Origin: an uncultured Flavobacteriaceae bacterium
GTDB taxonomy: Bacteria; Bacteroidota; Bacteroidia; Flavobacteriales; Flavobacteriaceae
Assembly (NCBI GenBank): GCA_947494695.1
Contig: CANLWB010000008.1
Coordinates: forward strand, 62,001 to 126,000
Direction of reading: 5' to 3'
Length of the DNA: 64,000 bases
In this document: piece by piece, positions 14,345 through 62,114 of the stretch
Numbering within the stretch: position 1 is the stretch's first letter
Layout: each line of letters opens with the position of its first letter
Translations under genes and position numbers: made by a program
Notes under the pieces: generated by a model
Seen by the model: only the letters and a program-made list of their open reading frames with translations
Told to the model about the DNA's origin: nothing
The model's database searches: none

Positions 14345-15433
14345 TCAAATCCCCATTAGCTTCATCCATTGTTCTCCAATTCGTTCTAAAGAAAATTTTT
14401 CTACACTCGATGATGCATTAGACTTACAATGCATATACAATTCAGCGTCCTTAATAAATAAATCCATCGCTTTTGTTAAAGCCTTAAGGTTTTGATCTTC
14501 GACAAGCAGGCCATTTTCTTTATGAATGACAATCTCACCCGGTCCGGTTTTGCAATTAAAAGACACTACTGGTGTACCACATGCCAGAGCCTCCAGCATT
14601 ACCATTGGCATACCTTCATGAGAGCTCGATAGAACAAAAAACTTTGCTTTTTTGATATATTTATAAGGGTTACTCTTGAAACCCAACAGATGAACTAAGT
14701 GAGCTACACCATTTCGTTCTGCAACCTCCAATAAATTATCTTTCAGGGATCCGTCTCCAAGAATCACAAGAGCTATCTTATTTTTGGGAAGAGTGGATTT
14801 AGAATAAGCGTCTATAAGTTTATCAAATTGTTTAACATTGGTATCATACTGTCCGACGCCAATGATAAATTCAAAATCCTCCAAAGCAACTTTTTCCATT
14901 GCTTTCCCCTCTACTTCCTGAATATTAATAGGGTTGTAAATCGTCATGACATTCTGTAAACCATGTCTTTCCTCAATCATTTTCTGCATATCCTTTGTGA
15001 TCGAAATCACTTTAAAAGAGTTGGAATACATTAGCCTCGTTAAATATGATTGATCGGGCATATAACTATTAAGTTTGGCACTGTGTACTGTAAAAATAGT
15101 TTTCGTATTATATACAAATCGGGCAACTAATAATTCCTGAATTGGCTTAATTCGAAACCTAAAATCAATTATATAATCAAACTTATGCTTATTCAAGTAT
15201 TTTCTTAACGCAATTAGTCGTTTAATCTTATTAAAAACACCATTAGTCTTATTTTTGAGCTTGCCTAAATTTTCAATAGTACCAGAATATGGATAGGCGA
15301 TATCATCGATAATTATTATGTTATGCACGTCCAACCCTCTTTCATCAAAAAAAACGGATAAAATAGCTGCAACGCGCTCTGCCCCCCCTCTGTTTAATCG
15401 ATACCCTACTAATGCAATTTTTTTCTTATTCAA
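14345..15433 (-). CDS. family 4 glycosyltransferase
   Basis: The 362-residue GT-B enzyme has ALVGYRLNRGGAERVAAIL at the N-terminus, FIIGVGQYDTNVKQFDKLIDAYS in the linker to the donor domain, and the donor motif SSHEGMPMVMLEALACGTPVVSF. It resembles GalNAc/GlcNAc-type transferases of polysaccharide clusters in general architecture, but the substrate cannot be assigned. It is the promoter-proximal gene of a two-gene minus-strand unit, divergent from the GT2 gene at 15542. Confidence 0.9.
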   Translation of the reverse strand: MNKKKIALVGYRLNRGGAERVAAILSVFFDERGLDVHNIIIIDDIAYPYSGTIENLGKLKNKTNGVFNKIKRLIALRKYLNKHKFDYIIDFRFRIKPIQELLVARFVYNTKTIFTVHSAKLNSYMPDQSYLTRLMYSNSFKVISITKDMQKMIEERHGLQNVMTIYNPINIQEVEGKAMEKVALEDFEFIIGVGQYDTNVKQFDKLIDAYSKSTLPKNKIALVILGDGSLKDNLLEVAERNGVAHLVHLLGFKSNPYKYIKKAKFFVLSSSHEGMPMVMLEALACGTPVVSFNCKTGPGEIVIHKENGLLVEDQNLKALTKAMDLFIKDAELYMHCKSNASSSVEKFSLERIGEQWMKLMGI

Positions 15434-15541
15434 TACGCCTGCTTATGAAATTTGTCAAAAATAACTGTTTATTTTTATTAACTTAAAATATTTTTGAAAT
15501 ATAAAAATTACATTTACAACTACGAATAATATCTAATTCAA

Positions 15542-16483
15542 ATGATTCTCTTATCCGTTCATCTTTTAACCTTCAATAGTGAAAAATACATTGAGGAAAC
15601 CTTAATATCCATTCTAAAACAAAAGGTTGATTTTGACTATGAAATTGTGATTGGAGACGATTGTTCTACAGACAAAACACTAGAGATTGTTAATAGATAT
15701 GCATTAAAGCATCCAGACCTATTTAAGGTAAAACAAAATAAAGTCCAACTGGGTATTTTAAAAAACTTTAAAACAACGCTTGATAGATGTCTTGGCAAGT
15801 ATGTTTTCGATATTGCCGGAGACGATTTGCTTAAAAGTGACACTAGTCTTCAAAAAATGGTTAATGTTTTTAATGATAATCCTGAATTAGGCTTTATAGA
15901 TTGTGGTATAGACAGACTAAACGATAAGAACGGTAAAACGGAAGCGCTTTTAAATAAAGAATTACTGCATGCTCCAGATAAAGATTATGTGAAGGCCGCC
16001 TTACTGGGGAGTATAGTTCCTATCGGAATTTGTTATAACCGTGAACTTCTATATAAGTATGTTGATTTTAAAACTTACATGGATATGAAAATAACTATTG
16101 AAGACTATCCCATTATAGTAAATATGATCATGCACACGAAATTTCTAAGAATCCATGAATCGTTAGTGATATACAGAGTCCATGATAGCTCCTATTCTCA
16201 TAAAAAGACATTTGAGCGTCATTTTTTTCTAAACAATCAAATGAGACTTTTATTTAAATATTTCTCGAATAAGTACGAGTTCTCAAAGGATATTATTGAG
16301 GCGTTCTATATAAATTCTAACAGGGAACTTCTATTCTTTGCGGGCTATTTCGAGAAAAAAGAACTTGGAAAAGATATGTTTAGAAAGTTAAAATCAACAC
16401 GTGTTAAAGATTTAGTACACTACTGGGCAAGTCAAAGCAAAATGTTCAGGAAATTAGTTTCTATTAAGCGCTTTATAAGCTAG
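15542..16483 (+). CDS. family 2 glycosyltransferase
   Basis: The 313-residue GT-A protein has LLSVHLLTFNSEKYIEETL, EIVIGDDCSTDKTLEIV and DIAGDDLLKSD (the position of DxD). Its 3' end overlaps by 30 bp the 3' end of the convergent ketoisomerase gene. The role is sugar transfer in the surface glycan; the acceptor is unknown. The divergent promoter region toward the GT4 pair is 108 bp and AT-rich. Confidence 0.88.
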   Translation: MILLSVHLLTFNSEKYIEETLISILKQKVDFDYEIVIGDDCSTDKTLEIVNRYALKHPDLFKVKQNKVQLGILKNFKTTLDRCLGKYVFDIAGDDLLKSDTSLQKMVNVFNDNPELGFIDCGIDRLNDKNGKTEALLNKELLHAPDKDYVKAALLGSIVPIGICYNRELLYKYVDFKTYMDMKITIEDYPIIVNMIMHTKFLRIHESLVIYRVHDSSYSHKKTFERHFFLNNQMRLLFKYFSNKYEFSKDIIEAFYINSNRELLFFAGYFEKKELGKDMFRKLKSTRVKDLVHYWASQSKMFRKLVSIKRFIS

Positions 16484-16876
16484 ATAAGCATTAAAATCAT
16501 GAATATAGTCATCTGCTTGGTATACATCTGAAGCCACCACTAGACAAATAGCTCCTGATGAAAAGTTTTCAAGCTCTCTCCATACCCCGGGTGTTATGAG
16601 CAGACCTTTCGAGGGGTTATTTAATGTGATACGTCTTTCATTCTTTTCATCTTTAACAACAACATCAAAACTGCCACTAACGGCAATTAGGAATTGATTT
16701 AATTCTTTATGAGCATGTCCTCCCCTGTACGAACCGCTTGGAACATCAAATAAGTAATAAACACGTTTTATTTCAAAAGGTATAATATCTTTTTCAATAA
16801 CAGAAAGGTTTCCTCTAGGATCGGTAATTTTAGGAATATCAATTATACTTAAATCTTCAACTTTAACCTGCTTCAT
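16454..16876 (-). CDS. dTDP-4-oxo-sugar 3,4-ketoisomerase, FdtA/QdtA type
   Basis: The 140-residue cupin opens VEDLSIIDIPKITDPRGNLSV and has YYLFDVPSGSYRGGHAHKEL and LLITPGVWRELENFSSGAICLVVASDVY. This is the WxcM/FdtA family, which converts dTDP-4-keto-6-deoxyglucose into a 3-keto sugar, the substrate for 3-amination. The matching aminotransferase lies nearby at 18156, so the pathway is toward a dTDP-3-amino-3,6-dideoxyhexose (Fuc3N or Qui3N). Its start overlaps the flippase gene end by 14 bp, which indicates an operon. Confidence 0.9.
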   Translation of the reverse strand: MKQVKVEDLSIIDIPKITDPRGNLSVIEKDIIPFEIKRVYYLFDVPSGSYRGGHAHKELNQFLIAVSGSFDVVVKDEKNERRITLNNPSKGLLITPGVWRELENFSSGAICLVVASDVYQADDYIHDFNAYLAYKALNRN

Positions 16877-35681: not shown

Positions 35682-36641
35682 GGAATTAATTTACGATCAA
35701 CCGTTGATAATAAACGTGTTGAAAAAAGTATAACCAGAATGATTGTGCCCAAATATTGGAATAAAAAATCTCAAAAAGCTATGGATAAAATCGTGAAGCT
35801 GTTGAAATCAATAATCACATTGACAATCTCAAACATAAGCTATATAAAATACATCAAAGATTAATTGATGATGATCAATTTATATCTGCAAAATCTATGA
35901 TGAACATCTTGAAAGGCAATGGTAAAAAAGTTAGATTCATTTTAGAAACGTTTAAGGCACATAACAAAAAAACTGATTTATTAGCGAGTAAAGACATTTC
36001 TATTAGTACGGCAAAACGTTATTGGACTTGCTATGACCATGTTAAACAATTCATAGAAGTCGAATATCGATTAGAAGATTATAAACTAAAAGACATTAAC
36101 TACCATTTCATTACCAAGTTTGAATTATTCTTAAAAACTGTTAGACATTGCAATCATAATTCGTCCTTAAAATATATTAATAATTTCAAGAAAATTATTC
36201 GTATTGCTCTGGCTAACCAATGGATGGATCGAGATCCTTTTTATAACTATAAAGTGAAATTTACCCCTGTAGAACGAGCGTATTTAACAGCTGAAGAAGT
36301 TGATACACTATACTCAAAAGAATTACATTTTGACAGATTAAAAGTAGTAAGAGATATGTTTGTGTTTTCATGCTACACAGGTCTCGCATATTCTGATGTG
36401 GAGAAACTATCCAAATCGGATATCACTATTGGAATTGATGGTAAGCCATGGATCAATATCAAACGTATTAAAACAAATACACGAAGTAGCATTCCATTGT
36501 TACCAATTGCGAAAGAAATCCTAAATCGCTATGCATATCACCCACAAGTGATAAAAAGTGAAAGATTAATTCCTGTCTTTAGTAATCAGAAATCGAATGC
36601 CTATTTAAAAGAAATAGCAATGCTCTGCGGTATTAAAAAAC
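35682..36641 (+). pseudogene. broken tyrosine integrase of a tmRNA-associated element
   Basis: The arm-type DNA-binding region reads LRSTVDNKRVEKSITRMIVP then KYWNKKSQKAMDK in one frame. It resumes as NREAVEINNHIDNLKHKLYK in another after a one-base deletion near 35785. The SAM-like core-binding domain and first catalytic half follow (MFVFSCYTGLAYSDVEKLSKSD, with Gly-Leu where Arg is often G-[LI]-R-type). The gene stops at the IS256 left end, so the HxxR, H and Tyr region is missing. The longest intact piece is 35897-36679, ending in IS-derived residues. It is the original integrase of an island inserted next to ssrA and is now inactive. Confidence 0.8.
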
Positions 36642-37995
36642 GGGATAATAAAATATTTTGTGTTTTGTCATTTATTTAGTTGAAAAATGATTTTGAAATT
36701 CATAGGCAAAAAATTTACTTATAAATTTTTATTTTATGAATCCAGAACTAGAAAAACAATTAGAAGCCTTAATAGGCAAAATCACAAACAAAGAAGACTT
36801 TGATCAAGTAAAAGAACAATTACTTAAGCGAGGTATAGAATCACTATTGCAGGCAGAAATGACCGCTCATTTAGGTTATTCAAAAGGAGATCCAACATTA
36901 ACAGATAACCAGCACAATGGTTTCTCCCAGAAGACCTTAAAAACTCAAAATGGCGAACAGCGTATAAAAATCCCTAGAGATAGAGCATCGAGTTTCGATC
37001 CTGTGATTGTTCCCAAACATCAATCCATAAGTCAAGAATTAGAGGACTGTATTCAATTGCTTTACGCCAAAGGCATGAGTAATAGTAATATCATAGACTT
37101 CATAAAGCACACTTACGGGGTCAACTATTCAACATCACAAGTGTCACTCATTACCAACCAGTTATTGGAAGATATTAAACTTTGGCAGCATAGGCCGTTG
37201 GAGGATGTCTATCCCATAATCTGGATTGATGCCATTCATTATAAAATACGCCACGAAGGCAAAGTCGTCTCTAAAGCTTGTATGATTGTTTTAGGAGTCA
37301 ATACCGAAGGGCAACAAGATATTTTAAGTATGAACATTGTTGAATCCGAAAAAGCATCTGCCTGGATGTCTATTTTAGATGACTTGCGTACACGTGGGGT
37401 AAAAGACATCTTCTTTTTATGTTCGGATAATCTCTCTGGGCTAGACAAAGCCGTAGAAGCCATTTTTCCAGACAGTATAAGACAAATATGTATTGTGCAC
37501 CAAATTAGAAACTCTCTGAAATATGTAAACTATAAAGACCGCAAAGCAATAATGGCCGATATTAAATGTATTTATGGAGCAGACAATGAACATCTGGCAT
37601 TAGAAGCTCTCGAAATATTTAAGCAAAATTGGGAAGGTAAATATTTATCAGCCGTACAATCTTGGGAAAATAACTGGGATAATTTAATGGCTTTTTTAAA
37701 CTACCCAAAAGAGATTAGGAAACTCATTTATACTACCAATATCAATGAAAGTTTCAATGCTAGTTTACGCAAATACACTCGTAACAAAAAAGTGTTTCCT
37801 AATGATGATGCAGCTTTAAAATCCATATATCTAGCTGCTCAAGGAATTAGAAAAAAATGGAAGAAAACTCGATTTAAATGGGCGCAAATTTACAACCAAT
37901 TGTATATTTGTTTCCCTAACAGGTTATAATAAACAAACTTTTAACCTATGAATTTTGAAATTATTTTTCAAAAACACAAAATTTTGGATAAACTC
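36642..37995 (+). mobile_element. IS256-family insertion sequence
   Basis: The element holds one transposase gene between imperfect 25-bp terminal inverted repeats. The left end 36642-36666 starts GGGATAATAAAAT and the right end 37971-37995 reads, on the minus strand, GAGTTTATCCAAAAT; both end TTTTGTGTTTT. The two ends agree at 19 of 25 positions. I see no matching 8-9 bp target duplication at the flanks. The lack of duplication and the loss of the integrase 3' part suggest a later deletion or recombination between copies. Confidence 0.8.
36736..37929 (+). CDS. IS256-family transposase
   Basis: The 397-residue protein has the mutator-type layout: GIESLLQAEMTAHLGYSKGD, NGFSQKTLKT, RIKIPRDRASSFDPVIVPKHQ, YPIIWIDAIHYKIR (first catalytic Asp), FFLCSDNLSGLDKAVEAIFPDS (second Asp), ICIVHQIRNSLKYV and YTTNINESFNASLRK (Glu). 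The DDE triad is present and the length is normal, so it is probably active. It lies wholly between the terminal repeats of the element. Confidence 0.96.
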   Translation: MNPELEKQLEALIGKITNKEDFDQVKEQLLKRGIESLLQAEMTAHLGYSKGDPTLTDNQHNGFSQKTLKTQNGEQRIKIPRDRASSFDPVIVPKHQSISQELEDCIQLLYAKGMSNSNIIDFIKHTYGVNYSTSQVSLITNQLLEDIKLWQHRPLEDVYPIIWIDAIHYKIRHEGKVVSKACMIVLGVNTEGQQDILSMNIVESEKASAWMSILDDLRTRGVKDIFFLCSDNLSGLDKAVEAIFPDSIRQICIVHQIRNSLKYVNYKDRKAIMADIKCIYGADNEHLALEALEIFKQNWEGKYLSAVQSWENNWDNLMAFLNYPKEIRKLIYTTNINESFNASLRKYTRNKKVFPNDDAALKSIYLAAQGIRKKWKKTRFKWAQIYNQLYICFPNRL

Positions 37996-38729: not shown

Positions 38730-39770
38730 TTAAAAATATGTCTTTACAGCAAACTCAAATTGATTAATAAAAATCTCTTTAAAGTTTGAAATATTGTTTT
38801 GTTCGTAGAATAATAACATTGCTTTTTTGTAATCAATTGAGTCAACTGTCCTAAAAGATAACGGGCAATAACCATAATTCAATAAAATCGCATTACTAAC
38901 AATTCTTGCCGTTCTTTTATTACCGTCCATAAATGGCTGGATATAAGAAATCAGAACCAAAGCGAGTAATGCTTTTTCAAATATGCTTTCTTTGTCGTTA
39001 ATCACATCGCAAGTATTCCTAAGTGCCTCTAAGATTTGAAATTCATTATCAAGTGGTTTATAATTCGTTCCCGAGATACCGACTCTCCTTTTTCTTAAAT
39101 TCCTTTCAACCTCCAATTCTTTTGTCAGAATGCTGTGAATATCCTCAATCTTCGGAACAGTTAATGGATTTAAATAATCATCATGTTCAATTATGAAATC
39201 AAGGGCATCTTTATGATTCAATAGCATTACAGCTTCTTCTTTAGTTTTGCCGGAAGCTGTTTCCTTTTCTTTTAATAGTCGTTCAGTTTCTAAAAGTGTA
39301 TAAGTATTTCCTTCTATCTGTGATGACTTCCAGCTTAAATCAATCGCCAATCTTTCTAATTCCTTTTTATATTCAAATTCTGATAGTCCGAATATGTTTT
39401 TTTTATACTCCTTATGCAATAACGCCAACTTATCCAATTCACTTTCAGTAAACGAATTATAATTCTTTAATAAAACTGTTATTACTTCTGAATTGAAATT
39501 TTCTATGATTTGTCGTTCATCAATTTCTTTTTCATAATACTTTTCAATATCTATTGGACGAATCAATTCATAAGCAGGTGATAAAAGATATTTTGTTCCT
39601 TTACCTTGCCCTTTTGTTAATAAATAATTGTCTAATATCAAGTTGGTTAGGGTCCGTTTTAATGTGGCATAGCTAAAAGATTCACTAATTCCATCAAAAA
39701 TCTCTTTAGATGAACATTGTCCTTTCGTTTTTACAAAATCAATTATCTGTTGTTTTCTATTATCAATCAT
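38730..39770 (-). CDS. Fic-family protein with N-terminal winged helix and inhibitory motif
   Basis: The 346-residue protein has an N-terminal winged-helix-like part (QQIIDFVKTKGQCSSKEIFDGISESFSYATLKRTLTNLILDNY), an inhibitory-type helix SSQIEGNTYTL (fits [S/T]xxxE[G/N], about residue 157), and the Fic core YIQPFMDGNKRTARIV. In canonical AMP transferases this motif starts with His (HPFxxGNGR); here it is Gln. The remaining GN(K)R residues are kept. The protein may therefore be inactive as an AMPylator, use another chemistry, or act as a regulator through its DNA-binding part. It is a lone gene in accessory DNA flanked by an imperfect direct repeat. Confidence 0.88.
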   Translation of the reverse strand: MIDNRKQQIIDFVKTKGQCSSKEIFDGISESFSYATLKRTLTNLILDNYLLTKGQGKGTKYLLSPAYELIRPIDIEKYYEKEIDERQIIENFNSEVITVLLKNYNSFTESELDKLALLHKEYKKNIFGLSEFEYKKELERLAIDLSWKSSQIEGNTYTLLETERLLKEKETASGKTKEEAVMLLNHKDALDFIIEHDDYLNPLTVPKIEDIHSILTKELEVERNLRKRRVGISGTNYKPLDNEFQILEALRNTCDVINDKESIFEKALLALVLISYIQPFMDGNKRTARIVSNAILLNYGYCPLSFRTVDSIDYKKAMLLFYEQNNISNFKEIFINQFEFAVKTYF

Positions 39771-41160: not shown

Positions 41161-41185
41161 CGAATAACGGATAACTATTTATTAT
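41161..41185 (+). repeat. 25-bp inverted repeat, left copy (IR-L)
   Basis: Starts CGAATAACGG and ends TTTATTAT. The last two bases are the A and T of the ATG of the ATP-grasp/radical-SAM gene. It is perfectly complementary to 45047-45071. Sequence outside the 25 bp is not shared except for scattered bases, so the repeat has sharp edges. It contains ATAAC twice in tandem. Confidence 0.9.
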
Positions 41186-43550
41186 GTTTCAAAGAACTCT
41201 TTTCTGGGTTGGCCCCAGAAGATCTGATTTAGATCACGTAGAACATCTATTTTCTGGAGCGATAGTAATAATGGGGCAAGAAGAATCCTCAACAAATTTT
41301 ATATGTCGTTCTTTTGAGCATTATGCAAATAAAAGAGTTAATCACAATGATGGACAAAACTTTCCTGCAATTGACACCTTCTTTTGCGACCAAATAATTA
41401 ATATAATAAAAAACTACCAAAGCCCTAAATTCATGGCTTACGGGAGAGTTCCTAGAGGTCTGACACAAGAATTAAAGAGTTATTTTATAGGGCAAAATCA
41501 CTCATTAATTCTGTCAATGCTTGAAGACAAAATGCGCATGCGTAGTTTGCTTTCCAAATATATAAATGTACTCCCTTTTACAATCAATTTCTTTCATGAA
41601 ATTACACTTGCATCATTGAAAGATATGTTTCCCAATAATGATCAATTCATACTTCAAGAAGCAATTGGCTCATCTGGAGGAAATGGAACCCATATTCTTT
41701 CAGAGCATTCAGAAAATATTGTTCTAAAGAAGATCAAATCAAAAGATTTAATTGTATCTCCATATTTCAAAAAATCAATAAGTGTCAATCAACATTTAGT
41801 TGTTTTTCAAGATAATTCTTTAATATTTCCTCCTTCTATTCAAATAATACAACCCCATCTAGAAAAGTTAATTTTTTTTGGGAGTGATTATAGCTCTGCA
41901 AAATTGCTTAAAAGTCAAATAAGAAATAAAATATATGAAAGTACTAAAAAAATAGCAGAAATACTTCAACAATGTAATTACAGAGGAGTCGCAGGAATTG
42001 ATTATTTAATTGATGAGAACGAAAATTTGATGTTTATCGAAATTAATTCCAGATTTCAAGCATCAAGTTTTTTATTAAACCGAGAACTAATTTCAACTTA
42101 TAATATAACCTTACAGGAATTACATCTGAAAGCATTTAAAATCAAATCTCCAGAAACAGAATTTATAATCAACATGGAAACAAGTTTCATAAATGTTATA
42201 TCATCTGATAAAAAGACCTCTAAGGTTAAAAACGGTATTAGAAATAACTTGAATCTTGAAACAAATGATTTTGACTTGAATAATGAAAAAATTGATCAGA
42301 CTTATGAGGTGATCAATTCTGCAAATGATATAGAAATAGAAGCTGGAGGAACTGGTTATTCTTGTATATTTAAATTTCCGATAATGGGAAAGACGATTGA
42401 AGGGCACTTTCGATTACAGCCGAATTTATTGAGATTATCTAATTGTTTTGAAAATCGACAAAATAATATAACCCTTTCTCCCATATCTAAAGCAAAATTT
42501 GAGCTATTGACATTAGGAGTCCAATTAAGTTCGGATGCAATAAACTACATGAATAAATCTATTGAATTAAAAATGAGATACGCAATAGGCTATGCAATAG
42601 ATATTAAAATAACAGATAAAGTTTATGTAAACGCTCCTGTAAAGAGCCGCTTTTCAAACTTAAGTCCTTATATACTTGATCACAATAATAAGGAGGGCTT
42701 TACTATTTGGAAAGATAACTCAAAAATTTTTAGTGTAGATGTTTCTCTAACGCATCCATTAGCAATGAGAAAGACTAATAATGGGGTTCCATATAATCAT
42801 ATGGGACAAATGATTAATGATAGACTTCGCATATCTCCTTTTCCTACATGTAAATACAACAAAAAAAACAAATTAGCTTGTAAATTTTGTGACATTGGAT
42901 ACGCTGATATTGAATCTAAATATAGATTAGAAGATATTTGTGAAATGATAGATACCTATCTCAGTGAAGATGTTCAGTTAAGACATTTTTTAATTGGAGG
43001 AGGGACTGCTGGGAAAGCGGGGTGGAAGTTAATTCTAAAAATCGCAAAGCATATACGTTTACGCTGTAATTTAGATATTTATTTAATGGTTACACCACCA
43101 GAGGATTTGTCATTGCTATATGAGTTAAAAGAAGCTGGTATAACTCAAGTTGGTTTTAATCTTGAATTTTTTGATCGAAAACTTGCTGCTCAAATTATGC
43201 CAGGAAAAGGAATGATACCTTTTGAACAATATGAACAGGCATTTAAGTATGCGACTTCAATTTGGGGTAATAAAGGAGCTGTAAGAAGCATTCTTATAGC
43301 TGGTATCGAACCTTATAAAAATACTTTAAATGGAATTCAGTATCTAGCAAAACTTGGAGTTATGCCTATTCTGTCGTCGTTTCGATCTACACCTAATACA
43401 GAAATGGAATTCTTTTATTCTCCGTCACCAGATGAAATCACATGGCTTTGGAAAAAAGGTCAAGAGATCACAGAAAAATACAATTTGATTTTGGGACCAG
43501 AATGTATTTATTGTCAAAATAATACAATTAGTTTACCTGGTTCATTCTAA
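41184..43550 (+). CDS. ATP-grasp / radical SAM fusion protein
   Basis: The 788-residue protein has an N-terminal pre-ATP-grasp region (FWVGPRRSDLDHVEHLFSGAIV) and an ATP-grasp domain with FILQEAIGSSGGNGTHIL and the metal-binding GVAGIDYLIDENENLMFIEINSRFQ. A middle part of about 200 residues is not recognised. A radical SAM half has C556, C566 and C569 (C-x9-C-x2-C instead of Cx3Cx2C), GGGTAGKAGWKLI (SAM GGE-like position) and GFNLEFFD. Another Cys pair (C774, C777) lies at the C-terminus. ATP-grasp enzymes make amide-type bonds and radical SAM enzymes do radical chemistry on the same or linked substrates, so a two-step modification enzyme is likely. Substrate unknown. The ATG overlaps the left inverted repeat. 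Confidence 0.8.
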   Translation: MFQRTLFWVGPRRSDLDHVEHLFSGAIVIMGQEESSTNFICRSFEHYANKRVNHNDGQNFPAIDTFFCDQIINIIKNYQSPKFMAYGRVPRGLTQELKSYFIGQNHSLILSMLEDKMRMRSLLSKYINVLPFTINFFHEITLASLKDMFPNNDQFILQEAIGSSGGNGTHILSEHSENIVLKKIKSKDLIVSPYFKKSISVNQHLVVFQDNSLIFPPSIQIIQPHLEKLIFFGSDYSSAKLLKSQIRNKIYESTKKIAEILQQCNYRGVAGIDYLIDENENLMFIEINSRFQASSFLLNRELISTYNITLQELHLKAFKIKSPETEFIINMETSFINVISSDKKTSKVKNGIRNNLNLETNDFDLNNEKIDQTYEVINSANDIEIEAGGTGYSCIFKFPIMGKTIEGHFRLQPNLLRLSNCFENRQNNITLSPISKAKFELLTLGVQLSSDAINYMNKSIELKMRYAIGYAIDIKITDKVYVNAPVKSRFSNLSPYILDHNNKEGFTIWKDNSKIFSVDVSLTHPLAMRKTNNGVPYNHMGQMINDRLRISPFPTCKYNKKNKLACKFCDIGYADIESKYRLEDICEMIDTYLSEDVQLRHFLIGGGTAGKAGWKLILKIAKHIRLRCNLDIYLMVTPPEDLSLLYELKEAGITQVGFNLEFFDRKLAAQIMPGKGMIPFEQYEQAFKYATSIWGNKGAVRSILIAGIEPYKNTLNGIQYLAKLGVMPILSSFRSTPNTEMEFFYSPSPDEITWLWKKGQEITEKYNLILGPECIYCQNNTISLPGSF

Positions 43551-45046
43551 CCTTTCCCTTTCTTTTTATGTATTATTTGCTTTTCCTTAGATAATTTTTT
43601 CTCTAATTTTAATTTGGTAATATGGACATTTAACAATTTAATTTCCTTTCTTAATTCTTTCATTTTTTTTTTAAGGCCACCTTGTTTCGTTTTATTCAAT
43701 TGAACTCTCAACTCAATAAGTTCTTTTAAAAATTTTGAACTTCCTTTTAACAAGTATCCAGTTGCCAACATGAAAGTTGTAACAGTTCCTTCAACTGAAG
43801 TTGCATACTCCATGATAATTTCAATAGGAGAATTTTTTCTTAAAGAGACATGGGTTATCGAACCTTCCAATTCAAGGTAGTCATTACACTGTTCCAGTGT
43901 CAAAAAAATATTGTTCGTACAAGTGAGAGCTTTTGAGATGTCTCCCCCAATCACAAACTTCGCTCGTCCCCAATCACCTTGTTTTTTGTTTAAGTAAAGG
44001 TCTATTTCTCCTGCATGTAAAGCATAATTGTTTCTAAAAATAGGATTATCTTCATTATTTTTCCTTAGTGACTCGACTAGTTCATAAAGATTTTGTAATT
44101 GAGAACTTTCATATATATTCGAGACACTAACTAACTTACTTAAATATTTTATTTCTCGAAACTTGTTTCGCTCGAAGGCTAAAAAAAAACCTAATCTGAT
44201 GGCTGCGTCAAAATCATCAGCTCTATTTAAAGATAGGTATAAATTTGCCAATGGAAAGTATGAACTAAACTTAATAAAGTAAGTTTCCATACTAGAAAGC
44301 AACTCTCTATACTCATATTTACTGATACTTTTTCCTTGTTTAGAGGCCTTATCACTAGTCACTTCTAAACCGTGTGAAGTGAAGTAATTTGAAAATCCCC
44401 CAAAAGTATATGGTAATTGCATTATTGGAACTTTCACGTTGTCAAACATAGCATCAACAAAGTCAACGTATTCAATGTTCACTCTTCCTAAATCAATTTT
44501 ATACAAAGTCGCATATCGGAATATAGCTCCTTCTAAAGTACAAGACTTTATAGTACATGAACTTAAACTAGCACTTTCGAATAAACAATTACTAAGGCTT
44601 GTACTTTCGAAAAAAGTATTATTAAAAATACATCGGCTGAAATTTGCTCCTCCTAAATTAGCTCCGACAAATGTCGTTCCATCATTTTTATCACTGGAAG
44701 TGAAAGCAGAAGATTCAAAATCGGCAAATTGAAAATTTGAACCATTAAAGTTACAGTCAATAAATTTGCAACTTGAAAATTCCGAACCTGTACCCGCTGC
44801 TTTCTTAAAGCTACAATTAACAAAAGTTACATTACTAAGAGCTACACGTTTTAAACTATGACTTTCGAAGCTTTTATTTTCAAATATTGCGTCTGAAGCT
44901 ATGCTTTCAGTAAATAATGCTCCATCATTACCGAAATCTTCAAGATGTAACATAAGATCTTTTTTTGCCTTTTCCCAAGACTCATTAGTAATTTCAGGAA
45001 TTGAACTTGTAGGCCTGATAGGCAAATTACTTTCTTCTGAAACCAT
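43547..45046 (-). CDS. pentapeptide-repeat protein with C-terminal coiled coil
   Basis: The 499-residue protein has roughly residues 40-190 made of five-residue beta-helix repeats with F or L at the centre (SNVTFVNCSFKKAAG, SSCKFIDCNFNGSNFQFADF, GANLGGANFSRCIFNNTFFE, ASLSSCTIKSCTLEGAIF). A helical middle part of unknown fold follows, then a hydrophobic stretch (TTFMLATGYLL) and a Lys-rich coiled coil at the end. The repeats give a rod-like quadrilateral helix often used for binding. No enzyme motif is visible. The start lies immediately inside the right inverted repeat, and the stop overlaps that of the ATP-grasp/radical-SAM gene. Confidence 0.85.
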   Translation of the reverse strand: MVSEESNLPIRPTSSIPEITNESWEKAKKDLMLHLEDFGNDGALFTESIASDAIFENKSFESHSLKRVALSNVTFVNCSFKKAAGTGSEFSSCKFIDCNFNGSNFQFADFESSAFTSSDKNDGTTFVGANLGGANFSRCIFNNTFFESTSLSNCLFESASLSSCTIKSCTLEGAIFRYATLYKIDLGRVNIEYVDFVDAMFDNVKVPIMQLPYTFGGFSNYFTSHGLEVTSDKASKQGKSISKYEYRELLSSMETYFIKFSSYFPLANLYLSLNRADDFDAAIRLGFFLAFERNKFREIKYLSKLVSVSNIYESSQLQNLYELVESLRKNNEDNPIFRNNYALHAGEIDLYLNKKQGDWGRAKFVIGGDISKALTCTNNIFLTLEQCNDYLELEGSITHVSLRKNSPIEIIMEYATSVEGTVTTFMLATGYLLKGSSKFLKELIELRVQLNKTKQGGLKKKMKELRKEIKLLNVHITKLKLEKKLSKEKQIIHKKKGKG

Positions 45047-45071
45047 ATAATAAATAGTTATCCGTTATTCG
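45047..45071 (-). repeat. 25-bp inverted repeat, right copy (IR-R)
   Basis: Read on the minus strand it is identical to IR-L for all 25 bases and is followed directly by the ATG of the pentapeptide-repeat gene. Confidence 0.9.
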
Positions 45072-45821: not shown

Positions 45822-46556
45822 ATGGAAAATTCTAATGATATTAAATCTCTTTTAGAGGAGATTGCAGTTTCGGTATTGAAAGATAAAATAGGGAATTATG
45901 ATATCCTTACTGAAGAAGATAAAAAGGATATACTCTTTTGTGTTACCGACCCAGTCCAAATTATGGAATATTTAGAGTTTGAAAATAAATTAAATAAACA
46001 AAGAGCCTGGAAGAAGATCATGTTTGACAGGAAGAAGATCATATTTGAAAAGGTTTTCGACCGTTTAAATAACCCATTATGTCTTTTTGCTTATAAATAT
46101 GTGAATGATTTTAAGACCTCAGAAGACATCGTACAAAATGTTTTTATAAAAGTTTGGGAGGATGATACCATTTCTTTTCATGATATGAAAAAGGTTGATG
46201 GGTTGTTTTATACAATCGTAAAAAATAAATCACTTGATTTTTTAAGAAGTAAATACGCAAAAGATGTTCAAGCCTACCCTATTGAAAATTTAGAAATATT
46301 TCAAACAGAAAAATACAACCTAAAAGAGACTTTTATTGTTGATACTTCAACTATTATTCATAATGCAATCAATTCATTACCGAATAAATGTGGTTATGTT
46401 ATGAAATTGAGCCTTAAAGGTTACTCTAATAAAGAAATAGCGAGTGAAATGCAACTATCCGTTCAAACTGTCAAAGTGCATAAAAAAAACGCCTATAAAA
46501 AACTTCGAAAAATTTTTGGTCAAAAAACTAAATTCTGGTTAAATTCTGAATCTTAG
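45822..46556 (+). CDS. ECF sigma factor with N-terminal extension
   Basis: The 244-residue protein has sigma region 2 (NPLCLFAYKYVNDFKTSEDIVQNVFIKVWED, FYTIVKNKSLDFLRSKYAKD) and region 4 (INSLPNKCGYVMKLSLKGYSNKEIASEMQLSVQTVKVHKKNAYKKLRKIF), the FecI-like pattern of Bacteroidota. About 75 residues precede region 2, which is unusual; this part includes a short repeated block (KKIMFD.KKIIFE). No anti-sigma or SusC/D gene is adjacent. It is paralogous to the sigma gene at 48600. Confidence 0.88.
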   Translation: MENSNDIKSLLEEIAVSVLKDKIGNYDILTEEDKKDILFCVTDPVQIMEYLEFENKLNKQRAWKKIMFDRKKIIFEKVFDRLNNPLCLFAYKYVNDFKTSEDIVQNVFIKVWEDDTISFHDMKKVDGLFYTIVKNKSLDFLRSKYAKDVQAYPIENLEIFQTEKYNLKETFIVDTSTIIHNAINSLPNKCGYVMKLSLKGYSNKEIASEMQLSVQTVKVHKKNAYKKLRKIFGQKTKFWLNSES

Positions 46557-47343: not shown

Positions 47344-48108
47344 ATGAATCAAACAGATTTAGAAAAAGTACGACACAATAGCCTAATTACTTTGGATGAG
47401 ATTAACGAGAATACTGAAGATAAGGTACAAGGCTATTATACTATCCAGTATATTAAACAGTTTTGGAATAAAATATATAGCAAATTTATTTTTCCTACAA
47501 TATCCACTTCTGAAGGATCACCAGAAGAGGTAATAGTAAAAATTGATGAAGTTAAATCATTTATATTATTTGCAATTAATGATATTTATAAAACTGATAT
47601 TAATGGTGTCTTAAAGCAACTACAAAAACTACAAGATTTATTTTCGAATAAATCTTTTCCTATAAAATCTAATAATGAAAACCTTAGACCATTCATTAAA
47701 GTTATCAAGAAAATAAACAAAACTTTTGATAAAATGGCGCTGGTTGCTACAAATCCAAATTGGTTGCTAAGAAATTTTAAAAAATTCATAGGAATTGCAA
47801 AACCAAAAATATCTTCATCTAATAAAGATAGAATTTTGAATATAATAGAAAAGTCATTACTCGGAGCGACAGAAAGATTAGCGGAAAAATTGAATATCGA
47901 AGAAAACTTCATAAATGCTTTCTCGATATTAGGTCTTCCATTTACGGCATCTAAAGAAGATGTAGAGAAAAAGAGAAAATATTTAAGCAAAAAGTATCAT
48001 CCTGATAAGAACCTCAGTGATCAAAAAATGTTTACAAAAAGGATGTCTGAAATAAATAATGCCGCCGATTTACTATTGAATGAATACTATAAGAAATATG
48101 GTTCTTAA
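47344..48108 (+). CDS. protein with C-terminal J-domain
   Basis: The 254-residue protein has roughly 185 N-terminal residues of mostly helical, Lys-rich sequence with no recognised family (YTIQYIKQFWNKIYSKFIFP, INGVLKQLQKLQDLF). It ends in a J-domain (AFSILGLPFTASKEDVEKKRKYLSKKYHPDKNLSDQKMFTKRMSEINNAADLLL) with the HPD motif. The J-domain is terminal, unlike in DnaJ itself. It should recruit DnaK to whatever the N-terminal part binds. It sits between the two sigma genes. Confidence 0.82.
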   Translation: MNQTDLEKVRHNSLITLDEINENTEDKVQGYYTIQYIKQFWNKIYSKFIFPTISTSEGSPEEVIVKIDEVKSFILFAINDIYKTDINGVLKQLQKLQDLFSNKSFPIKSNNENLRPFIKVIKKINKTFDKMALVATNPNWLLRNFKKFIGIAKPKISSSNKDRILNIIEKSLLGATERLAEKLNIEENFINAFSILGLPFTASKEDVEKKRKYLSKKYHPDKNLSDQKMFTKRMSEINNAADLLLNEYYKKYGS

Positions 48109-48599: not shown

Positions 48600-49331
48600 A
48601 TGAATCTAACCAAGCCACAGAAACTAACGTTAAACGAATTCGAAAAGATTTACTATCGCCTATATACACCGTTATGTCTCTTTGCAAATACATATGTTAA
48701 TGATTTAGATATCTCTCAAGATATCGTCCAAGATGTCTTTGTAAAAGTATGGGAGGACAAGCTTTCTTTTGAAAATCAAGATAAGATAGATGCGTTCTTT
48801 TATATAGCAGTAAAAAACAAATCGTTGGATTTCCTAAAAAGTAAATATTCAAAAGATTTTAAGGCTTATGCTACAGAAGATCTTGAAATTTTACAATCAG
48901 AAGCACACTTTATATCCGAAATTGCAATTATAGAAGCTTCTACCACTATTGAAAATGTACTCAAATTGCTGCCTAAGAGATGTGCTGAAGCTATGCGATT
49001 AAGTATTAAATATTACAAAAATAAAGAGATAGCAGAAAAAATGAACATATCCGTAGACACGGTTAAGGAATACAAAAAAAAATCGTACAAAAAATTACGA
49101 GTTTTTTTTCTGATTATGCAACAAATAAGGGATAATAAAATATTTTGTGTTTTTCAATTAAAATGTTTTTCAAGTTCCTCAATAGCTATTTTTTGTTCTC
49201 TAACATTTCCAACACGTATAGAATCTACCAAGGCTAATAATTCATGTAACATACTATCTTTTAGTGCTGCTTCTGGCACCTTACTGTGTAACGGTTCTAT
49301 AGCAAAACCTCTATTCTTCCCCTTAGCGTAA
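48600..49331 (+). CDS. ECF sigma factor, 3' end replaced by an IS256-type terminus
   Basis: Region 2 (TPLCLFANTYVNDLDISQDIVQDVFVKVWED) and region 4 (LKLLPKRCAEAMRLSIKYYKNKEIAEKMNISVDTVKEYKKKSYKKL) are intact and closely match the sigma gene at 45822, without its N-terminal extension. Real sigma sequence ends near 49128. From 49129 the frame reads through an IS256-type end (RDNKIFCVF) and then antisense to the next gene until a stop at 49331. The first 176 residues may still form a working sigma factor, but the tail is not native. Confidence 0.75.
   Translation: MNLTKPQKLTLNEFEKIYYRLYTPLCLFANTYVNDLDISQDIVQDVFVKVWEDKLSFENQDKIDAFFYIAVKNKSLDFLKSKYSKDFKAYATEDLEILQSEAHFISEIAIIEASTTIENVLKLLPKRCAEAMRLSIKYYKNKEIAEKMNISVDTVKEYKKKSYKKLRVFFLIMQQIRDNKIFCVFQLKCFSSSSIAIFCSLTFPTRIESTKANNSCNILSFSAASGTLLCNGSIAKPLFFPLA
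49129..49153 (+). repeat. solo IS256-type terminal repeat
   Basis: These 25 bp are identical to the left end of the IS256 element at 36642-36666, but no transposase gene follows. Directly after it lies the stop codon of the minus-strand regulator gene. It is a scar of a lost element or of recombination between copies. Confidence 0.8.
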
Positions 49332-61937: not shown

Positions 61938-62114
61938 CTAGTGTATTGGAGTTTCAATGTAATTACCATCCCCAAGCTTACGCTTTGTACGTTGTTCTTT
62001 GGTTGCTTCTGGTGTAGCAATAGTGCTGGAATATAATGGCTTCGGAAAACAGGCTTCTTTTCTTCTTTCGTAATCTGCTTCTCTAAATTCATCAAAGACT
62101 CCGCAATCTTTCAC
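61938..62114 (-). pseudogene. truncated third copy of the tandem membrane-protein family
   Basis: A 58-residue frame (GTG start possible) reads GVFDEFREADYERRKEACFP then KPLYSSTIATPEATKEQ. This matches FDAYRQQDFERRKAEGFPKPLYRSHIPTPEATEEQ of the two large neighbours. It has a different ending (LGDGNYIETPIH) and no membrane part. It is a remnant or a minimal relic of the same family. Confidence 0.7.

Follow-up and report, generated by a model that had tools for sequence, protein, structure and literature searches.

Why should a tyrosine recombinase stand beside two complete, convergent genes that have a perfect inverted repeat around them? The question was raised by a 64,000-nucleotide stretch of DNA (the window, positions 62,001 to 126,000 of contig CANLWB010000008.1, assembly GCA_947494695.1) from an uncultured Flavobacteriaceae bacterium, in which an Xer-like recombinase gene adjoins a segment holding gene A, for an ATP-grasp and radical-SAM enzyme, and gene B, for a pentapeptide-repeat protein (Table 1). 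A first-pass annotation, made from the letters of the window alone, had proposed that recombination between the repeats exchanges which of the two genes stands behind the recombinase. We consider it probable that this is a site-specific invertible cassette, and that its inversion alternates the dominant partner of a two-part conflict module. For the family to which the locus belongs, inversion is strongly supported by sequence comparison; that inversion selects which partner is expressed is a step that we infer.

The arms of the repeat in the window, each of 25 nt and 100% complementary to the other, have 3861 nt in between, and a 15 bp gap separates the recombinase stop codon from the left copy. 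Each arm is the leader of one gene, i.e., the ATG of gene A begins on the final two bases of the left copy and that of gene B directly abuts the right copy, and the two convergent open reading frames (ORFs) overlap by 4 bp at their stops. This whole layout, including the intact recombinase and the exact limits of both repeat copies, had been described correctly in the first-pass annotation. The repeat is not a matter of chance, since, even when up to 3 mismatches are tolerated, the 25-mer has exactly two copies in the genome (5.49 Mb), and a backwards control had 0. Two hallmarks of an invertible element are present in the window, a segment between two inverted sites with identical cores and a dedicated recombinase adjoining it; a shufflon, with its three or more sites, was rejected on the count of two copies in the genome. 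Gene A matched PF02655 (1.9e-6) and PF04055 (2.6e-8) in Pfam and the variant_rSAM model NF045502 (169.6 bits, over the cut-off of 125). Gene B matched PF13599 (8.5e-16) and PF00805 (1.9e-15), and its NCBIfam matches to Qnr (49.8 bits) and HalA (38.6) were far under the cut-offs of 240 and 250. A PADLOC search gave no match for either gene.

Table 1. Features of the invertible locus, in coordinates of the window.
Feature	Position	Strand	Remarks
Xer-like tyrosine recombinase, 304 aa	40231..41145	+	D-type (directed at cassette); PF00589, 1.7e-40
Left (near, recombinase-proximal) recombination site	41161..41185	+	Core GATAACTATTTATTAT at 41170-41185; matches family motif
Gene A, ATP-grasp + variant radical-SAM, 788 aa	41184..43550	+	Near slot; Pfam, NCBIfam
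Gene B, pentapeptide-repeat protein, 499 aa	43547..45046	-	Far slot, convergent; Pfam
Right (far) recombination site, inverted copy	45047..45071	-	Core at 45047-45062

Relatives of the locus were sought with an alignment of the N-terminal part of the recombinase, which gave 147 matches and 111 confirmed relatives, and the family counts rest on the 80 of these that were kept (84 with four loci from viral contigs). Among these loci, to which we refer by our own handles, L108 and L111 (Prevotella, Prevotellaceae) are collinear across the recombinase (98.9% over 1462 bp) and in the far flank (100% over 55 bp, same direction), and their cassettes align in reverse (84%, 2219 aligned bp). At the four junctions, AAATGAACGAAT on the near side (that of the slot adjoining the recombinase) and ATATAAACTAAC on the far side have stayed fixed and the inner sequences have been exchanged. 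The TIR proteins of this pair are 100% identical over 246 aa, and the ThsA proteins 76%. Recurrent pair families, linked by BLAST, were found in both orders in six of eight cases, or in five if L078, whose far site is not established, is left aside. ThsA is far in L085, L108 and L160 and near in L111; an Mrr/AAA protein is far in L088, L115 and L142 and near in L095; one AAA protein is far in L118, L147 and L155 and near in L075, and that of a further family far in L106 and near in L130. Likewise, a GNAT protein is near in L077, L107 and L161 and far in L078, i.e., the GNAT and methyltransferase pair of S. salivarius has the opposite order; a CDP-alcohol transferase is far in L092 and near in L096 and L099, and a 256-aa partner near in L128 and far in L101 and L163. 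A single order was seen for L124/L153 and for the window with L087 and L091. The expectation of the first-pass annotation that inversion would keep both ORFs whole and swap the gene on the recombinase side was thus borne out, with both orders, including one exact inversion, present in the family, and the comparison with relatives that it had proposed turned out positive across the family and negative for the window's own gene pair.

The sites themselves were recognizable across the family. The motif GATAAY-N5-[A/G]TTA adjoins the recombinase in 62 of the 80 loci (48 downstream, 14 upstream), against 55 of 4200 random 200-bp windows, and when the motif was not required, 38 of 84 loci proved to have an exact inverted repeat no shorter than 16 bp; the recombinase faces the cassette in 28 of these, as in the window (D-type), and faces away in ten (U-type). 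Among related loci whose sequence continues for over 1.5 kb downstream of the recombinase gene, 28 of 54 have such a repeat at the 3' end of the gene; of 540 windows drawn at random from these loci, 10 have one. A consensus from 75 sites, AATAAAG-GATAAY-N5-ATTAT[C/G], for which the extraction pattern had dictated the letters GATAA and TTA, describes an outer half that is typically AATAAAG-GATAA, a centre of 5-6 nt that is identical in both copies of a locus (partly built in, exact repeats having been required), and an inner half, TTAT[C/G], that reaches into or near the start codon. Exact copies of the core, checked in 38 cassettes over the stretch examined, numbered two each, except in L157, which has one and is without the near motif. 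Three Aliarcobacter plasmids have the same layout, with a diverged core in L076 and L077, AATAATAGGATATTATA, that the family motif missed. When 299 genomes of the same taxonomic family were scanned for the site, 55 had a match, many of them single matches with 3 mismatches that look like chance, and inverted pairs at cassette distance beside a recombinase were found in G014, G029 and G221 in addition to the window genome (G000). One contig end (L083, Ferruginibacter sp. HRS2-29) has a perfectly palindromic double half-site, GAATAAAGGATAAT...ATTATCCTTTATTC, and after it a second, different site; this is perhaps a rearranged site, and the locus may hold an extra one. With members in Bacteroidota, Campylobacterota, Bacillota, Desulfovibrionaceae, Ignavibacteriota, Fibrobacterota, Spirochaetota and others, the recombinase group with its site layout is, as judged from these comparisons, a large family that crosses several bacterial phyla. 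A search of the open-access literature, in which some queries were too strict and from whose reach most subscription papers and all of bioRxiv were excluded, found no description of it.

The recombinase is not one of the familiar Xer proteins. Against the XerD and XerC equivalog models it scored 249 bits, under the cut-offs of 330 and 335, and in a tree the 80 family recombinases (75 of the 80 loci, the window and four plasmid loci) stood apart with support of 99/99 from seven host Xer proteins, the ones that entered out of 15 offered after those with a stop in the reading frame were dropped. On these grounds, an orthologue of the housekeeping XerC/XerD of dif resolution was rejected, as was an integron integrase (TIGR02249, 119.7 bits against a cut-off of 265). 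Arg153, Lys177, His246, Arg249, His272 and Tyr281, which we take to be the catalytic positions, are invariant across eight aligned sequences. The window genome has two other Xer homologues, with 38% and 34% identity to the recombinase. Among 12 genomes of the genus, the site occurs in two and a close recombinase orthologue in the same two; that of Flavivirga jejuensis KACC 14158 (G006) has 92% identity, and the 24 other Xer homologues listed for the genus 33-39%. A close search (E 1e-65) of 395 genomes of the order matched only two (G000, G484), and one of viral contigs none.

If both orientations of such a segment coexist in a culture or population, they should leave a mark on assemblies. A repeat of 25 bp is shorter than the usual assembly k-mers and should therefore break an assembly only when both orientations are present, and contigs of the family do break at the site, as expected if these breaks reflect coexisting orientations. 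Of the 80 loci, 22 have a contig end no more than 250 bp past the stop codon of the recombinase, and four have one at most that far ahead of its start; by the same measure, none of the genus's 24 other Xer homologues stands close to a contig end. The site motif is on 20 of the 22 downstream ends, ten of which end within 6 bp of its inner edge, and on three of the four upstream ends. Fourteen genomes were rescanned (those of L102, L105 and L112, and of 12 broken loci out of the 22, with sites that the scan pattern would recognize), and in six (G670, G672, G674, G677, G678, G683) a same-core site was found at the end of a second contig. In Allomuricauda ochracea JGD-17 (G672) the two contigs share a 22-mer and each stops 127 bases from where it begins, in different genes, and a search of this genome for a separate cassette contig found none. 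The F. jejuensis cassette lies on a contig of its own (C11, 6940 bp) with an inverted site at both ends, and its recombinase contig (C4) starts 123 bp inside the C11 end, a 123-bp overlap. In L115 (genome G014) and L160 the far contig end repeats 99 nt of the recombinase-side flank and the site, which indicates that both junctions were assembled. The contigs of L111 and L127 end 39 and 83 bp beyond the far site.

What, then, is being inverted? The genes converge from both sites in 37 of the 38 loci with inverted repeats, usually one per side, L157 being the exception. Their 3' ends overlap in 27 of 42 cassettes (five of them added by hand; median gap -10.5 bp); among 88 further convergent ORF pairs from these loci, 12 do so (median gap 101.5). 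For L092 and L094 the gene calls had been amended manually through the removal of overlapping ORFs. A Pfam scan of 37 cassette proteins besides the two of the window revealed many pairs of a small-molecule enzyme with an AAA or NACHT nucleoside triphosphatase (NTPase), sometimes with tetratricopeptide repeats (TPRs), or with a pentapeptide protein. The enzymes included ATP-grasp proteins, glycosyltransferases, serine hydroxymethyltransferase (SHMT), an aminotransferase, a pyridoxal-dependent (PLP) decarboxylase, spermidine synthase, carbamoyltransferase, CDP-alcohol transferase, UbiA, methyltransferase and GNAT; SIR2-NACHT and AAA-type NTPases were among the other proteins, and in further pairs one partner was without any Pfam match. 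Thoeris-like cassettes, of ThsA with a TIR protein, were found in L085, L108 and L111, with ThsA matches of 2.8e-99, 2.8e-94 and 6.9e-93; their TIR partners matched ThsB at 1e-6 to 4e-10 and PDC-S66 better.

Relatives of the window's own pair were few. In L087 the near slot holds relatives of gene A as two separate genes, a radical-SAM half of 316 aa (39% to gene A residues 573-785) and an ATP-grasp half of 423 aa (30% to residues 160-332), and in L091 it holds the ATP-grasp half only (35%). The far slot of both has a pentapeptide protein that matched gene B (3e-10 and 8e-5), a similarity possibly inflated by the repeats. In L123, another Campylobacterota genome, the contig breaks 41 codons into a near gene, and this piece is similar to the beginning of gene A (46%, 35 aa). 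A close search of genome contigs for gene A relatives found none, and one of 395 genomes of the phylum at E 1e-40 found only the window's own. The first-pass annotation had seen two unrelated genes offering alternative functions; this part did not hold, in that relatives of both genes recur together in L087 and L091 and other members of the family carry a pair like Thoeris, a defence system known to have two components. A random combination of unrelated genes was likewise rejected on the recurrence of both partners together across loci. The cassettes look like co-inherited two-part modules, often of a sensor or effector with a small-molecule enzyme. By a hand count the enzyme was near and the NTPase, TPR or pentapeptide protein far in 19 of 25 cassettes (binomial p 0.015), a figure on which we do not rely, its rows being phylogenetically non-independent and its labels made partly via BLAST links.

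Several cassettes depart from the simple pair. In L076 (Aliarcobacter plasmid pM830MA, 1937-4407) the gene for the AAA partner is apparently split into two ORFs, both of which match the same relatives, where there is a single gene, and L103 (3426-9455) is unusually long, its 70-bp arms enclosing four ORFs on the near side and a single SHMT-like gene on the far side. In L095 (Poritiphilus flavus, 14468-16839) two genes stand in line with the far slot, one of 282 aa without a Pfam match; we presume that they resemble a defence-type pair of an ATPase and an HNH protein. The far flanks of L106, L124 and L153 encode PD-(D/E)XK nuclease, non-specific endonuclease and TIR proteins directed into the far slot, and with such defence-type neighbours in three of ten flanks scanned, some platforms sit among defence-type genes.

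How inversion might matter to the cell can be read from where the sites lie. The recombinase beside the cassette would perform the inversion, with crossover in the centre of the site between its half-sites, and the near slot would be a regulated expression slot. Apart from two loci whose arms are long and duplicated, the D-type repeat begins somewhere between 12 bp ahead of the recombinase stop and 34 bp past it, and the near gene should therefore be co-transcribed with the recombinase; in D-type loci, the window among them, it would be read through from the recombinase gene. In U-type loci the near gene faces the recombinase's own divergent promoter region, beside which inversion would place one gene or the other. 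In L160, a U-type locus, a promoter-like sequence, TTGACT-17-TATACT, lies outside the near site and is directed inward (3 of 200 shuffles were as good). The 3' ends, which often overlap, then leave no room for a terminator, and near transcription should interfere with the far gene. Inversion would then alternate the dominant partner of a conflict module, small-molecule enzyme or sensor/effector, and in the window the ATP-grasp/radical-SAM enzyme, now near and at present presumably favoured, with the pentapeptide protein. Such switching may serve as population-level bet-hedging of a costly defence-type module.

A number of observations weigh against this reading. The motif is absent from both sides of the recombinase in 18 of the 80 loci, and 46 of 84 are without an inverted repeat of at least 16 bp, partly as a result of contigs that end at the site. 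No flipped copy of the window's pair was seen, the gene A relatives of the window, L087 and L091 all being near. The promoter scan did no better than shuffles in 12 of 14 near flanks (L160 was clear and L142 marginal, with 23 of 200), and neither flank of the window showed a promoter pattern of the Bacteroidota type. Neighbours in the far flank, none of them consistent, face the cassette in 17 of the 32 loci that have one (of 39 examined, 15 face away and seven have none in the examined stretch), so that the far gene may often be transcribed too. Moreover, Thoeris is generally held to need both of its proteins, and strict expression of one at a time would disable it. In genomes from metagenomes, a mixture of strains could also break contigs. 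For these reasons, an unequal, orientation-dependent expression of the two genes is more plausible than strict alternatives.

The strongest rival grants the recombinase and its inverted sites a different task. They would mainly exchange promoterless two-gene cassettes, integron-like, by double site-specific exchange, with inversion a by-product of no regulatory value. Turnover of content is plain enough. The F. jejuensis cassette, a 1406-aa SIR2-NACHT protein and a convergent 890-aa protein with a pyridoxal-dependent decarboxylase match at residues 403-604, is unlike that of the window, and the platforms match at 89.6% over 1044 bp up to the near site (recombinase side only), i.e., the recombinase side is constant, the cassette different and the assembly broken at the sites. 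Different cassettes were also found between similar flanks in Aliarcobacter L076/L077 (97.8% and 90.4%), L124/L138 (74.1% and 88.5%) and L094/L103 (75.9% and 80.8%), and on similar near sides in L107/L108 (86.6%, with 28 bp only at the far site) and L118/L108 (93.1%), the similarity stopping at or near the site in these unlike pairs. A search for a conserved gene in the far flank gave strong matches only in platform pairs such as L094/L103, L124/L138 and L076/L077, and otherwise weak or scattered ones. These comparisons show that one platform can hold different two-gene cassettes, joined at the sites, and they favour capture, as does the spread of motif and layout across phyla. However, homologous recombination in the flanks could also exchange cassettes, no circular or donor intermediate was seen, and the 3' overlap and the reuse of the same pairs suggest selection on pair and layout. 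We regard capture as the main task with inversion idle as somewhat unlikely.

It is a good deal less probable that the family inverts and the window copy is a fixed relic. The window cassette does lie inside one contig of 317,747 bases, whereas that of F. jejuensis broke at the site; against this, the recombinase is intact with its invariant catalytic positions kept, and the sites are identical over 25 bp, which a relic should lose. Hardly credible is a shared translation leader before two genes without recombination, for, although the site reaches into or near start codons and by eye includes an AGG/AGGA ribosome-binding-like stretch in Aliarcobacter, it has two genome copies only, inverted and adjoining a recombinase (and not, as the first-pass annotation had allowed, many copies before genes without recombinases), and the inverted cassette of L108/L111 and the contig breaks at the site contradict such a leader for the family.

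The surroundings of the window locus hold several features of their own. A Mutator-family transposase (PF00872, 36736-37929) lies directly after a 260-aa ORF (35897-36679) of which only an N-terminal integrase domain was matched, perhaps an insertion into an integrase gene. Upstream of the recombinase is a Fic/DOC-family protein (38730-39770, minus strand), and the Aliarcobacter plasmids L076 and L077 likewise have annotated DUF4172 proteins next to their far sites. Beyond the far site two paralogues resembling extracytoplasmic function (ECF) sigma factors (45822-46556 and 48600-49331, plus strand; 55.7% identical over 158 aa) have a DnaJ-domain protein (47344-48108) between them.

The locus looks like a tyrosine-recombinase inverton of whole genes with an integron-like turnover of its content, and the family points to a little-noticed group of genetic switches with many gene pairs, some of them known anti-phage systems. 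A bolder proposal, which we put forward as a serious possibility short of a probable one, is that a phylum-spanning platform both exchanges and flips promoterless two-gene conflict modules of enzyme and sensor/effector, switching the expressed half so that cells are primed oppositely. If true, this would be an immune cassette system both mobile and phase-variable, with traits of the integron as well as of the inverton. Inversion of such cassettes would account for the presence of some recombinases beside defence-type genes, and would show that two-part immune modules can vary in phase as whole genes. The recombinase group and its motif offer a handle for finding new defence-like pairs by guilt of association, and a natural inverter of whole cassettes with a compact AT-rich site could serve as a genetic tool.

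Each known system shares part of this picture. In integrons, an Xer-related integrase beside a site captures and expresses promoterless genes, whereas here two inverted copies of one site surround one two-gene cassette; an integron-type array of attC-bounded single-gene cassettes was not what we found around the convergent pair, attC structures not having been searched for. In the G segment of phage Mu (Gin), in P1 (Cin) and in the sap locus of Campylobacter fetus, inversion decides which of two alternative genes, complete or almost so, follows a fixed expression site. What is exchanged there are related genes for surface or tail-fibre proteins within a single lineage, and the phages use serine recombinases for it, whereas the window family is one tyrosine-recombinase group across phyla with many non-homologous pairs. 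Thoeris is usually laid out as an operon, whereas L085, L108 and L111, which, unlike the window, pair a ThsA-type protein (ThsA being SIR2 with STALD) with a TIR protein, encode the two convergently inside an invertible segment. Invertons, e.g., fim, RecV of C. difficile and the invertible promoters of Bacteroides, have a tyrosine recombinase, inverted sites and reversible inversion of a short segment, and in all of these the window family is like them; they flip a promoter or a gene end, whereas the family flips two whole convergent genes between fixed flanks and, unlike them, has a start codon at or near the inner edge of the site. The RecV switches are treated in PMC5903667. According to PMC12529663, inversion of a cryptic-prophage segment by PinQ affects adsorption of phage T2, and its authors remark that recombinases near anti-phage genes are usually dismissed. 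PinQ is a serine recombinase acting on a cryptic prophage, unlike the tyrosine recombinases of the family, and yet, like the role proposed here, its inversion links a site-specific recombinase to phage resistance.

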